NCBI GenBank assembly: GCA_022566355.1
Contig: JADFJB010000034.1
Coordinates: 1-36,599 of the forward strand
From: a candidate division KSB1 bacterium
GTDB lineage: Bacteria; Zhuqueibacterota; JdFR-76; DREG01
DNA: 36,599 nt
Direction: 5' to 3'
The notes beneath the pieces are model-generated. The model did not search any database and was not told the origin of the DNA. It saw only the letters and a list, made by a program, of their open reading frames with translations. Positions 5 to 32,626 of this stretch are shown one piece after another (the first letter of the stretch is position 1; every line of letters begins with the position of its first letter). Position numbers and translations under genes: made by a program.

Positions 5-68
5 GGCAAAAAGTAACAAAGGCACAAAGGAACAAAGAACCAGAGGCACAAAGTAACAAAGGCACAAA
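5..68. repeat. Degenerate 8-nt tandem repeat (GGCACAAA family)
   Basis: Eight consecutive 8-nt units can be read: ggcaaaaa, gtaacaaa, ggcacaaa, ggaacaaa, gaaccaga, ggcacaaa, gtaacaaa, ggcacaaa. The period is a strict 8. The same unit on the other strand makes up the tract at 32571-32626. No gene overlaps it with any credibility. Confidence 0.85.
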
Positions 69-155
69 GTATTGAAAAAAAAAGAAGGAAATAAGGTAAT
101 AATTCAGCCTCGAAATCCCTAAGACTCAAAGGATGACGGAAAGAGAAACAAAAAA

Positions 156-240
156 GGTAAAAAATAAAAGGTAAAAGGTAAAAGGTAAAAGGTAAAAGGT
201 AAAAGGTGAAAAGTAAAAAGTGAAAGGTATAAGTAAAAGA
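156..240. repeat. 7-nt tandem repeat (GGTAAAA)n
   Basis: Five perfect copies of ggtaaaa occupy 170-204. Degenerate copies lie on both sides (aagtaaaa, ggtgaaaa, ggtataag). Together with the tract at 5-68 it fills the roughly 390 bp before the first gene, where I see no gene. The long minus-strand reading frame across it (126-311) is low-complexity Phe/Leu sequence and is not credible as a protein. Confidence 0.85.
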
Positions 241-9530: not shown

Positions 9531-9551
9531 TGCGTCAACCGTGTTGATGCA
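9531..9551. repeat. REP hairpin, left of RAYT gene
   Basis: GCGTCAAC (9532-9539), loop CGT, GTTGATGC (9543-9550) forms an 8-bp stem with one G-T type mismatch. It is the inverted counterpart of the hairpin at 10187-10205 on the other side of the transposase gene. Confidence 0.75.
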
Positions 9552-9605
9552 CAAGTTTGAATCATGTCGCAATCCATCGAGCCAAATCAATAATTCCAGA
9601 TCTAT

Positions 9606-10166
9606 TCAAAAATCATCTTCTACCTTGATCTTGTCAAAAGGATAATTTCTAACAAGTTCTCTAACAGCATCTTCATTCTCACGGAATCGATAATAATAGC
9701 TGCCAAACTCCCATTTTACTGGGTCATCTATCAGAAAGTGTTTCACAGGATTAAACCAGGTATAATTTATCCTCGCAAAATAAGATCGTTCGTAAGTTAA
9801 ACAGGTATCCCAGTAATTATACCATATCCTCTTTTTCTGTTCTAAATCCGGAAAAGTTTTCCTAAGTTTTAAAGTAGTAAACCTGTGGATATCCCTGATA
9901 ATTTTAGGCAAATCAACAGCGTTTTCTGGAGAATTGACAATCAAATGATAATGATTGTCTAGAATAACCCAATCTTCAAGATGCCAATCGCCTTTGGAGA
10001 ATCCTTTTATAATTGATTCTAACAGGATTTGTTTTGCGAACTTTGTCGAGAAATGGTGTAATTTTTGGTATGTGCTTGCTGTTATGAAGTATTTTGCATT
10101 TGGGATGAACAAATGTGGAGGATTGTGTTGATAGGTTTTGTAGATAATTTTTTGATTGGTTGTCAT
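9606..10166 (-). CDS. REP-associated tyrosine transposase (RAYT, IS200/Y1-like)
   Basis: The 186-aa product belongs to the Y1 HUH superfamily. The N-terminus has an FITASTYQK beta strand. The HUH metal site is NHYHLIV (His72 and His74) after WVILD. The C-terminal helix YFARINYTWFNPVKHFLI contains the NPVKH signature of RAYTs, with Tyr135 the likely nucleophile. RAYTs cut and join DNA at REP palindromes, and one such palindrome lies on each side of this gene in inverted orientation (9532-9550 and 10187-10205). This strongly supports the call and suggests a self-contained REP-RAYT unit. The gene is alone on its strand and looks intact. Start at MTTNQK, with no strong ribosome-binding site. Confidence 0.9.
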   Translation of the reverse strand: MTTNQKIIYKTYQHNPPHLFIPNAKYFITASTYQKLHHFSTKFAKQILLESIIKGFSKGDWHLEDWVILDNHYHLIVNSPENAVDLPKIIRDIHRFTTLKLRKTFPDLEQKKRIWYNYWDTCLTYERSYFARINYTWFNPVKHFLIDDPVKWEFGSYYYRFRENEDAVRELVRNYPFDKIKVEDDF

Positions 10167-10184
10167 GATGTTTTATGCTTAAAA

Positions 10185-10206
10185 GCGCATCAACACGGTT
10201 GATGCA
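10185..10206. repeat. REP hairpin, right of RAYT gene
   Basis: GCATCAAC (10187-10194), loop ACG, GTTGATGC (10198-10205) is a perfect 8-bp stem. The loop is the reverse complement of the loop in the left copy (CGT), so the two hairpins face each other as inverted repeats around the transposase gene. Confidence 0.8.
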
Positions 10207-10332
10207 TTCCATATGAATTTAATTATTAATTTTGTAATAACTTATTTAAACAAGGCCCCTCTTAGAAAATCATCCCGTTTTTACTTGTTCATAATCCAAT
10301 TAGGCTAACTAAATAACGAATATAAAATAGAA

Positions 10333-17441: not shown

Positions 17442-17466
17442 AATGTTTTTTCTCTAAATTAAAATT

Positions 17467-17571
17467 AACTGATAACTGATAACTGATAACTGATAACTGA
17501 TAACTGATAACTGATAATTGATAATTGATAATTGATAATTGATAATTGATAATTGATAATTGATAATTGAA
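17467..17571. repeat. 7-nt tandem repeat inside the efflux operon
   Basis: Seven perfect copies of aactgat (17467-17515) run without interruption into seven perfect copies of aattgat (17516-17564), ending in aattgaa. The array fills most of the 131-bp gap between the adaptor stop (17573-17575) and the next permease start (17441). Because 7 is not a multiple of 3 and no frame contains a stop, on the minus strand it can be read in any frame as repeats of NYQLSII. Confidence 0.97.
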
Positions 17572-22409: not shown

Positions 22410-23699
22410 ATGTCTGATAATTTAAAGTTAAATCGCCGGACAGTTTTTAGCTGGTGCATGTATGATTTTGCGAATTCTCCCTTCACAACACTGGTTGTGA
22501 CCTTTATTTATTCCGCATATTTTACCGGCTACCATGCAGAAAACATCACGGTTGGGACAGTATATTGGTCTCGAGCCGTGACTATAACTGCAATTATCGT
22601 GGCTCTTTTATCTCCAATTGTTGGTGTCATGGCAGATCGGGGTGGAACCCGCAAACTTTTTCTTTTCATAACAACTGCTACCTGTGTTGTTGCTTCGACT
22701 TTCCTCTATACCATTGAGCCAGGATTTGTATTGCAAGCGCTCATTTGGTTCGTGATCGCAAATATCGCATTTGAAATGGGAGCGGTTTTTTATAATGCTT
22801 TTTTGCCTGATATCACTCCATTGGAGAAAATAGGCCGAGTTTCCGGATATGGTTGGGCATTGGGTTATGTGGGCGGATTGCTGGCATTGGTCATTGCTTT
22901 TGTTGGATTTGTCAATGCGGAAATTCCATGGTTTGGATTTAGCAAAGATGCTTATCAACATGTTCGTGCAACCAATCTTCTGGTTGCGGTCTGGTTTGCA
23001 GTGTTTAGTATTCCCACTTTTATCTGGCTTAAAGAAAATAAGTCAAGAGTTATTAAAGATGGAAAAAATACCGTCACTGAAAGCTATAAACAATTGGTTA
23101 ACACCTTTAAGGAAATCAGGAAATACCGTCAGGTTGTGAGACTTCTTTTAGCACGTTTAATTTACAATGATGGTCTGGTCACAATATTTGCTTTCGGTGG
23201 AATTTATGCTGGAGGAACATTCGGCTTTACTTTAGATGAAATAATTATTTTCGGAATTGTGTTAAATATTTGCGCTGGTATTGGAGCATTTGCTTTCGGA
23301 TATTTGGATGATATTCTCGGCGGCAAGAAAACCATCATGATTAGTCTGATTGGTCTTTCTGTGGCGGCTATCATTGCCGTTACAGCACAAAACCGCTTTT
23401 GGTTCTGGATTGCAGGAATTCTGATCGGGCTGTTTTCAGGACCTAACCAGGCTGCCAGTCGTTCTTTGATGGCACGCTTTGTACCGCGAAATATGGAAGC
23501 AGAGGCATTTGGATTTTTTGCGTTCTCAGGTAAGGCTACAGCATTCTTAGGGCCTTTACTCCTGGGCATCCTGACAGGTGCTTTTGACAGTCAACGGGTT
23601 GGCATTGCTATCGTCCTGGTATTTTTTGTTGTGGGGGGTGTGCTTTTGCACTTTGTGAATGAAGAGGAAGGGATAAAATTGGCGGCAAGGGGAGAGTAA
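22410..23699 (+). CDS. MFS transporter, UMF1/Atg22-like
   Basis: The 429-aa permease has about 12 hydrophobic segments. Its opening, RRTVFSWCMYDFANSPFTTLV, is characteristic of the UMF1 (Atg22-like) branch of the major facilitator superfamily. ADRGGTRK at the 2-3 loop is the MFS signature position, and GPNQAASRSLMARFVP lies in the C-terminal half. Atg22 exports amino acids from the yeast vacuole; the substrate of the bacterial relatives is not settled. ATG 22410 is preferred over TTG 22407 because GGAG (22399-22402) is then 7 nt away. Its last 200 bp are partly duplicated as a decayed copy 950 bp downstream. Confidence 0.9.
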   Translation: MSDNLKLNRRTVFSWCMYDFANSPFTTLVVTFIYSAYFTGYHAENITVGTVYWSRAVTITAIIVALLSPIVGVMADRGGTRKLFLFITTATCVVASTFLYTIEPGFVLQALIWFVIANIAFEMGAVFYNAFLPDITPLEKIGRVSGYGWALGYVGGLLALVIAFVGFVNAEIPWFGFSKDAYQHVRATNLLVAVWFAVFSIPTFIWLKENKSRVIKDGKNTVTESYKQLVNTFKEIRKYRQVVRLLLARLIYNDGLVTIFAFGGIYAGGTFGFTLDEIIIFGIVLNICAGIGAFAFGYLDDILGGKKTIMISLIGLSVAAIIAVTAQNRFWFWIAGILIGLFSGPNQAASRSLMARFVPRNMEAEAFGFFAFSGKATAFLGPLLLGILTGAFDSQRVGIAIVLVFFVVGGVLLHFVNEEEGIKLAARGE

Positions 23700-23731
23700 A
23701 ACGTGAAGCGTAAGACGGCAGACGTGAGAGT
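23700..23731. repeat. Degenerate 7-nt repeat directly after the MFS stop codon
   Basis: Units aacgtga, agcgtaa, gacggca and gacgtga follow the TAA immediately. The same family (gacgtga, gacggca on the minus strand) follows the stop codon of the amidohydrolase ending at 32660. Confidence 0.65.
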
Positions 23732-23754
23732 GTTAATACAAATACTTTTTCTTA

Positions 23755-23810
23755 TCATTTCCGCATGCTTACCCGTTAAAAACATACGGGCACAAGTTTA
23801 GCGCGAATCT
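23755..23810. repeat. Dispersed hairpin repeat, copy 1
   Basis: The 38 bp at 23766-23803 are identical to 24592-24629, and similarity extends outward on both sides. It contains the hairpin CCCGT-(9 nt)-ACGGG. It is one boundary of the HigA segment. Confidence 0.9.
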
Positions 23811-24133
23811 CATTTTTGCAATGATAAGAACCGGTTAATGCTTGTTCCTGTATATTAAACCAAAGAAAAATTGAAATCTATTCATACCATGAATGATAAT
23901 CATTCACACCTTGAATTAAATTACAAGCCACATTGGTTTACAATCTTATTTGGAGAGGGTGATAAAAGCTTTCGTTACACTCCAATCAGAATTTCAGTCG
24001 TTATTCACCCGCCATGGATTATCTATTTAGTAGATCACCAAGAAAGTTTTACAAATAATACTTCTTGATAATTATCTCTCCATGAGATATTAACTCATAA
24101 GGAATATGATAAGAGTAAATGGAAGGAATAACA
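23811..24133 (+). other. No confident gene; weak 59- to 65-codon frame
   Basis: This stretch lies between the repeat and the antitoxin gene, where a HigB toxin would be expected. An open frame runs from ATG 23889 (or TTG 23871) to 24068 and contains HWFTILFGEGDKSFRYTP. It has no recognisable domain, no convincing ribosome-binding site, and does not resemble HigB/RelE. I read it as probably non-coding or a remnant. Confidence 0.3.
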
Positions 24134-24553
24134 ATGGAAGTGTTAAATGAAGAAATAAAAGCAATCGACAGAATATGGCCGATTGCCTCCAGGGTTGTAT
24201 CGGTCATCAATAATGAAGAACAGTATGAATATGCCGTAAAAGTATTAGATAAATTAATCGATATGGTTGGTGAAGATGAAAATCATCCACTGGCGTCATT
24301 AATGGAAACCATGGAAACACGGATCGAAGAGTACGAAAATGAACATTATCCTGAACCGAAAAGAGATTCGATTGGGTGCTTAAATTATTTAATGGAAGAA
24401 CATAATCTAAAACAAAGTGATTTAAAGGAACTGGGAAGTCAAGGAGTCGTATCGGAAATATTAAGCGGAAGAAGAAAGCTTAATATCCGCCAGATTAAAG
24501 CGCTCAGCAAACGATTTAAAATATCGCCTGCCGTTTTTATTGAAGATGATTAA
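24134..24553 (+). CDS. HigA-type antitoxin / HTH regulator without adjacent toxin
   Basis: The 139-aa product is of the COG5499 HigA type. The N-terminal acidic helical half (about 1-85, including YEYAVKVLDKLIDMVGEDEN and HPLASLMETME) is the toxin-facing part. A C-terminal helix-turn-helix follows (LKQSDLKELGSQGVVSEILS, then GRRKLNIRQIKALSKRF). GGAAGGA lies 7 nt before ATG 24134, which is preferred over ATG 24119. HigA proteins normally sit directly after a HigB mRNA interferase gene; none is present on either side. It could be a solitary antitoxin protecting against a toxin elsewhere, or a stand-alone regulator. The segment is bounded by two copies of a 38-bp repeat. Confidence 0.85.
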   Translation: MEVLNEEIKAIDRIWPIASRVVSVINNEEQYEYAVKVLDKLIDMVGEDENHPLASLMETMETRIEEYENEHYPEPKRDSIGCLNYLMEEHNLKQSDLKELGSQGVVSEILSGRRKLNIRQIKALSKRFKISPAVFIEDD

Positions 24554-24580
24554 TTAGTGTCTTAACGAACAACTTTTCTG

Positions 24581-24635
24581 TCATTCCCGTCTGCTTACCC
24601 GTTAAAAACATACGGGCACAAGTTTAGCGGGTATC
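24581..24635. repeat. Dispersed hairpin repeat, copy 2
   Basis: Positions 24592-24629 are identical to 23766-23803 and in the same orientation. The outer bases also match in part (TCATTCCCG here, TCATTTCCG in copy 1). It is followed within 20 bp by the MFS remnant. Confidence 0.9.
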
Positions 24636-24650
24636 TTCCAGACTGGAATA

Positions 24651-24877
24651 ATGAGATTCGTGCTGAAAAACATTGAAGCAGAAGCATTTGGATTTTTTGC
24701 GTTCTCAGGCAAAGCTACTGTTTTTCGAGCCCTGGACTCTTAATAATTTTGGCAGGAGCATTGGCAGCCAACGAGTTGGTATTGCAATTGTCCTGATATT
24801 TTTTGTCGTAGGGGGTGCTCTTACACTTTATGAATGAAGAGGAAGAGGGGATTAAATTGGCAGGAAGGGGAGAGTAG
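24651..24877 (+). pseudogene. Decayed duplicate of the MFS gene 3' end
   Basis: The DNA closely follows the last 230 bp of the MFS gene (about 23469-23699). It starts ATGAGATTCGTGCTG (MRFVLKN, against MARFVPRN in the intact gene) and continues EAEAFGFFAFSGKAT almost exactly. It then carries small deletions and an in-frame stop in the middle before matching again through AACGAGTTGG and GAATGAAGAGGAAG to a final TAG at 24875-24877. Only the C-terminal part exists. Substitutions are spread over all codon positions, as expected for drift after duplication. Confidence 0.9.
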
Positions 24878-24971
24878 AAAACATAAAATGACAAACCCTA
24901 TCGTGACGTTCATTTCACAAAACGAGGAAAATAGTGTACCGATATTTATTTAACCAAATTAATTCAAAGAC

Positions 24972-25008
24972 AAAAAAGGCCGTCCAAATATTTTGAACAG
25001 CCTTTTTT
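24972..25008 (-). terminator. Rho-independent terminator of the S9 peptidase gene
   Basis: AAAAAAGGC (24972-24980) pairs with GCCTTTTTT (25000-25008), and CCAAA with TTTTG extends the stem inside, with two mismatches. It lies 28 bp beyond the peptidase stop codon. Confidence 0.8.
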
Positions 25009-25035
25009 GTATTCTCAAATATTAGTACTATTTTC

Positions 25036-32531: not shown

Positions 32532-32570
32532 GTTCTTGATGTTTATTTTTCTTTTTTCTTTTTTACTTTG

Positions 32571-32626
32571 TGCCTATGTGCCTATGTGCCTATGTGCCTA
32601 TGTGCCTATGTGCCTTTGTTACTTTT
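32571..32626. repeat. 8-nt tandem repeat (TGCCTATG)5 plus degenerate copies
   Basis: Five perfect copies occupy 32571-32610, followed by tgcctttg and weaker units. On the minus strand the unit is ggcacata, the same family as the tract at 5-68, and the flanking sequence (gtaacaaa) is shared too. Confidence 0.95.

Follow-up and report, generated by a model that had tools for sequence, protein, structure and literature searches.

How does an antitoxin gene come to lie between two identical short repeats, with the end of an intact transporter gene before it and the broken end of a similar gene beyond it? This question is raised by contig 34 of a 4.62-Mb draft genome (213 contigs; here G000) of a candidate division KSB1 bacterium, a stretch of 36,599 nucleotides that was analyzed as a whole and is referred to below as the window. 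The original prediction proposed that a HigA segment had entered between two old copies of an MFS 3' end. Identical short repeats around a gene may, however, belong to the young interior of old elements and need not mark the ends of a cassette. We consider it probable that the repeats in the window mark two insertions, both of small palindromic MITE-like elements from a single family, the left hairpin of each holding a 27-nt hairpin module; that HigA is the remnant of a spread HigBA pair; that the broken MFS end (MFS') is the tail of a once-functional gene; and that the present order was left by element-linked deletions or illegitimate recombination.

The layout itself, an MFS gene end, a 38-bp copy, HigA, an identical copy and a broken MFS end, was borne out by coordinates, by an HTH_3 match and by alignments. 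The features are as follows, with the evidence for each in parentheses.

22410..23699, + strand: intact MFS/Atg22-like transporter gene (Pfam ATG22 4.1e-58, MFS_1 3.3e-27; the sole match in G000 at E≤1e-60)
23729..23862 (ends approximate), + strand: element copy 1, decayed, MITE-like (alignment to copies in its own genome)
23771..23797, + strand: 27-nt hairpin module of copy 1, within the loop of outer hairpin 23754-23810 (27-bp insert versus empty hairpin; fold)
24081..24131, + strand: the only remnant of a HigB-like toxin gene, coding for its C-terminal tail (16 codons and a stop; translation; tblastn)
24134..24553, + strand: intact HigA antitoxin gene without a toxin gene (HTH_3 2.9e-6; PDB 'Antitoxin HigA' 7e-16)
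24554..24666, + strand: element copy 2, MITE-like, right end truncated (nhmmer; alignment with full-length copies)
24597..24623, + strand: 27-nt hairpin module of copy 2, within the loop of outer hairpin 24580-24636 (27-bp insert versus empty hairpin; fold; alignment)
24654..24668, + strand: junction between truncated element copy 2 and the MFS' fragment (about 10 bases align to both)
about 24657..24877, + strand: MFS', a frame-broken piece of the 3' end of another MFS gene (alignment)
24970..25010, - strand: terminator-like hairpin of 19 pairs, past the 3' end of a convergent gene for what we take to be an S9-type peptidase (hairpin pairing)

The two 38-bp cores (23766-23803 and 24592-24629, both on the + strand, one on either side of HigA) match at 100%. 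With up to three mismatches allowed, the core has 2 matches within the window and 0 in shuffled controls, which rules out chance repeats as the origin of the pair. Likeness between the copies reaches past the core, at 87% over a 63-base ungapped block and over about 110 aligned bases in all, and the left end of element copy 2 (TTAGTGTC) starts directly 3' of the HigA stop codon. Separating element copy 1 from the HigB tail are about 210 bp (23863-24072) that contain a 65-aa ORF; this ORF (23871-24068) was rejected as a gene, as it has no match in Pfam, NCBIfam or plasmids. The window holds no tRNA, which rules out a tRNA-associated site, and no known RNA family was detected in it at the gathering threshold.

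Layers of the repeat family and the identical core

Alignment of the copies resolves three layers: an outer MITE-like element, a middle layer of two REP-like hairpins in opposite orientation, and an inner 27-nt hairpin in a loop. The outer hairpin that carries the module forms the left half of the two-hairpin element, and the 38-bp core comprises the module plus 11 bases of this hairpin. The element ends in terminal inverted repeats (TIRs; TAGTGTCTGAACGAAAA). Paired TIRs, as in MITEs, were found in 17 plausible elements, after two of 19 candidate rows had been set aside as artefacts, and window copy 2 retains the left TIR only. Matching 2-bp flanks, as left by target-site duplication, were seen by eye in 13 of the 17 (AT in eight, AC in two, and TC, GT and TT in one each), the AT cases being weakened by their AT-rich context. 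In many other copies the outer element is absent, and just the middle and inner layers are present.

The genome-wide search for the repeat that the original prediction had suggested revealed a dispersed family. The module pattern occurs at 17 places in the genome at three or fewer mismatches, 15 of them outside the window (reversed-pattern control, 0), and copy 1 used as a query recovers 22 places at E<0.005, both window copies counted. Empty outer hairpins number 33 at three or fewer mismatches (control, 0). The 38-mer subtype, as defined by the module pattern with at most three mismatches, was absent from 58 other genomes, and viral carriage of the module was rejected, with 0 stretches in viral contigs. 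At one locus (L008, G000:C91) a tRNA-like sequence was noticed by eye right after a repeat copy at 722-776.

Measured against a hand-written consensus, copy 1 matches at 32/41 and 32/42 positions of its arms and at 27/27 of its module, and the arms of copy 2 match at 39/43 and 35/44. As DNA, the two window elements fold no better than shuffled sequences (z -1.4 and -0.7), in contrast to an idealised element without the module (z -5.95), indicating that the window copies have decayed. The repeats had been predicted to be younger than the MFS ends, mobile or under conversion. They do belong to dispersed insertion-type elements, and their core is younger or better kept than its surroundings: between copy 1 and copy 2 the arms agree at 58/83 positions and the module at 27/27 (Fisher p=4e-4). 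In other pairs too, conservation is higher in the module than in the arms (25/27 against 59/84 between copy 1 and L005), so structural constraint could account for part of the core identity. An inserted layer cannot predate its host, so that identity inside and divergence outside are to be expected, and on these sequences the identical core would be the innermost, youngest (or better kept) layer of two older, diverged elements.

Conversion finds some footing in the same data. Local gene conversion between the two copies, with no recent module insertion, would fit the diverged arms around the 38-base identity, and among the loci fetched from this genome an exact 26-mer is confined to the window pair. 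A third copy in another context (L013, C138) nevertheless matches over 25 bases, so that the variant is shared beyond the pair, and we regard conversion as rather unlikely.

Nesting in steps of 27 nucleotides

Reading the core as an inserted layer leads to the sizes of the elements and their hairpins. Whole elements of 138, 165 and 192 bp correspond to zero, one and two nested 27-bp inserts, and other sizes occur too. Exact outer hairpins in G000 (n=67, with a pattern that permitted 24-84 nt and left outside the set the window copies, whose outer arms are mutated) measure 25 nt (1), 30 nt (34), 31 nt (5), 38-42 nt (16), 56 nt (1), 57 nt (5) and 58 nt (5), with 0 in the reversed control. The module is present in 11/11 of the 56-58 nt hairpins; the 38-42 nt class carries another loop insert (TCCCGCCTGGGCGGGATT), found at 16 places in this genome (for example C1:48818-48856).

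Eight pairs, each of a filled and an empty hairpin, were selected by us from paralogous copies that come nearly all from one genome. The members are exactly 27 bp apart in 8/8 pairs, with 0 mismatches outside the insert in 4/8 and one to three in the rest. Insertion sites lie in the left loop at ATGCTT^TTAG, in the right loop at AATCTT^TTGAG and, in L013, in the module's own loop at CATGTT^TTTGG, and the orientation of the module relative to the T-run is constant in all pairs compared. Because the loop of the module resembles the loops that modules occupy, nesting can repeat. No orthologous site was seen in both an empty and a filled version, and the case for insertion is built on the paralogous copies. 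As far as sequence comparison goes, the module behaves as a separate unit, occurring in at least three different hairpin loops, in one orientation, and always adding 27 nt.

The stems of 23 copies show compensatory change. Paired cells amount to 87.7%, against 81.1% in shuffles, and cells with two-sided changes to 27, against 9.7; eight pairs have two-sided changes, and the covariation score was reached by 0/500 shuffles, a figure that is not a probability since the 23 copies are related. The AAG end of the module pairs with the CTT ahead of the insertion point (helix 2, in 100% of cells of the 23 copies), a pairing that is a possible guide for module placement. Our tentative proposal, to which we give somewhat less than an even chance, is that here, outside the cyanobacteria, the 27-nt hairpin moves as a unit of its own, inserting in one orientation into the T-rich loops of existing hairpins and building Russian-doll palindromes exactly 27 nt at a time, guided by AAG/CTT or loop/loop pairing.

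The size steps could also be read in the opposite direction, with the 57-nt form ancestral and the 30-nt forms produced by precise slippage deletions of the loop, without any insertion. Hairpin loops are in general prone to deletion, but one module is found in different loops, even within the loop of another module, and the 30/31-nt form is the common one in other families of the phylum among the matches listed; this course of events appears improbable to us.

The outer hairpin is widespread in the phylum, being found in 43/81 genomes, this one included. Nor is the module family confined to G000: nested hairpins of the module kind were recognized by eye, among the matches listed, in G059:C194 and G001:C556. 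An element with a 27-nt module is present in G059, which belongs to another family, and G075, from another family as well, shares the two-hairpin element, with a TIR resembling the one described above (TTAGTGTCTGTCCGA). At three loci of G075 (L220, L221 and L222) this loop position is occupied by other, longer hairpins of about 41-45 nt, so that inserts may land in the loop more generally.

Gene ends around the repeats

The genes next to the two elements are incomplete. Among plasmid matches, HigA is closest, at 54.6% identity, to the antitoxin adjoining an annotated HigB on a Leptospira plasmid, where the order is annotated HigB, a 1-bp gap and then the HigA homologue. Homologues were found in 2741 plasmid records, and their distribution is patchy, in 3/58 other genomes at E≤1e-8 and in 6/81 other genomes of the phylum at E≤1e-18. 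The codons right before HigA (HEILTHKEYDKSKWKE-stop) match the end of the one HigB reference protein used for comparison, L146 (tblastn E=1.6e-6, 63% over 19 aa), and no further convincing HigB parts were found in 23700-24200. The HigA sequence, with its HTH, and the toxin-first order are those of the HigBA toxin-antitoxin system (E. coli type, PDB 5ifg/5ycl). Here, in contrast, there is no complete upstream toxin gene, and HigB is reduced to its last codons as a C-terminal tail, which makes HigA an orphan antitoxin. It may be what was left of a horizontally spread HigBA pair after loss of the toxin gene.

Drifted MFS copies beside identical repeats had been taken as a sign of the repeats' youth. 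The drift was seen: MFS' aligns to the 3' end of the intact gene at 78-84% identity in aligned blocks, with small indels. As a measure of age, the comparison misleads. In 49 comparable codons, MFS' and the intact gene differ by 14 synonymous changes (one in the stop codon) and 4 nonsynonymous ones, or 13 and 4 once the stop codon is set aside (4 of 17, binomial p=1.2e-5), counts that omit the badly aligned middle of MFS' (about 24723-24765) and favour conserved stretches. The synonymous excess argues that MFS' was selected as a gene before its truncation, so that much of the drift predates that event.

A second complete MFS gene in the genome was rejected, as there is a single protein match and a DNA search gave no other MFS piece; the second copy is known from its tail alone. 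MFS' would be the tail end of a second MFS gene that once functioned. Copy 2 loses its right end where MFS' begins, and deletion or illegitimate recombination at the short shared stretch 24654-24668 may have fused the element to the MFS' tail. A similar loss, to the right of copy 1, may have taken most of HigB, and element-linked deletions or illegitimate recombination would thereby have produced the present gene order.

Among relatives, G001 of the same family (contig JAUXJX010000089.1, L036) has, in order, what is presumably a PD40 protein, the MFS gene and presumably an S41-type peptidase. It thus offers part of what the search for an empty site in relatives had called for, one MFS 3' end without HigA, but its downstream neighbour differs, so the locus falls short of a clean empty site. 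G002, also of the same family, gave no MFS match at E≤1e-60.

An island that integrated at the MFS 3' end and brought its own 3' end would make the intact gene a mosaic of host and island and the fragment the original end. Islands of that kind exist, and selection has acted separately on the two 3' ends, which have diverged. The identity of the intact gene to G001 is, however, even along its length (0.65-0.73 per 150-nt block, 0.70 in the final block), the segment has no integrase, and with G001 as outgroup the fragment holds 24 private changes against 12 on the intact end; we find such an island hard to credit.

It is very improbable that a small HigA cassette, with the 38-bp repeats as its recombination or att-like ends, inserted between the 3' ends of two MFS copies: HigA is flanked by identical direct repeats, is patchy in the phylum and is absent at the MFS gene of a same-family relative, but the module lies at the 15 other places noted above, usually in an outer-hairpin loop, the repeats are inner parts of larger elements, with each window copy in its own element, the ORFs between them include no recombinase gene, the HigBA pair is itself truncated within the supposed cassette, and two degraded gene ends beside two elements argue against a unit bounded by the 38-mers.

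Known elements and a possible mechanism

The elements that we consider to have shaped this locus have likenesses among known short palindromes. SDR elements, which Elhai reportedly described in 2008 from Nostoc-type cyanobacteria, are said to be hairpins of 21-27 nt that show compensatory changes, lie inside minitransposons and nest within themselves. The module resembles them in size, dispersal, placement within minitransposon-like elements, nesting and compensatory changes, and in these respects is SDR-like; it differs seemingly in sequence, and in its host, which is not a cyanobacterium. The target here is a REP-like hairpin loop, not HIP1, within which SDR5 has a precise insertion site (PMC4390886).

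CGTC-type REPs, as described in PMC3733652, have a CGTC/TGTC tag, an 8-bp stem starting with AT, a loop of 4-5 nt and a CCA tail; they form head-to-head dimers with tags outward, without a known dedicated transposase, and such dimers occur inside longer palindromes. The outer hairpin consensus (TGTCATTCCCG...CGGGAATCT) shares with them the CGTC/TGTC tag, a stem of 8-9 bp starting with AT and the pairing of outward-tagged hairpins. It departs from that description in its loop of 12-13 nt (about 39 with the module) and its CT tail, in the TIR with 2-bp duplication that bounds the pair, and in having a 27-nt hairpin nested within its loop. GC clusters of yeast mitochondria, in the part of PMC4478555 available, are likewise short mobile palindromes with short flanking duplications (2-3 bp), which merge and shuffle; their host is an organelle, their sequence is unrelated, and their merging is not described there as fixed-length loop nesting.

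A literature search for nested loop hairpins in bacteria found no report among the papers listed, the word 'nested' is absent from PMC3733652, and nested 27-nt hairpins may perhaps be unreported outside cyanobacteria. By analogy, they may work like the already known SDR elements, in REP-like outer hairpins. Empty, singly and doubly nested forms of one element in a single genome, in 27-nt steps and with a defined loop target, make it testable how elements too short to code for anything move.

We infer that the module moves by itself. In what we see as the likeliest mechanism, a hairpin would be extruded, and an enzyme supplied in trans, possibly a Y1 (IS200/IS605/RAYT-like) transposase, would insert module DNA, single-stranded or copied from RNA, into its T-rich loop. 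IS200/IS605 elements, whose targets are chosen through base pairing, offer an analogy for the guidance of the module. Y1_Tnp matches occur at four places in the genome, one of them in the window at 9606-10166. No hairpins, module or TIR were found within 900 bp of these four genes, and at none of them do REPs flank a RAYT gene as in a REPtron.

The Y1 (IS200/IS605-like) transposase ORF of the window (9606-10166, minus strand) lies between inverted GCATCAACACGGTTGATGC-type palindromes (window 9531-10210), an arrangement like that of TIRYTs, transposases flanked by TIRs. At window 152-239 and 17466-17570, 7-bp units (AAAAGGT, TAATTGA/TAACTGA) are arrayed in tandem. Heptamer arrays are reportedly found in the neighbourhoods of Nostoc SDRs as well. 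Inverted arms of 78 nt (81%), composed of 8-bp tandem units, stand 32 kb apart at window 9-86 and 32549-32626.
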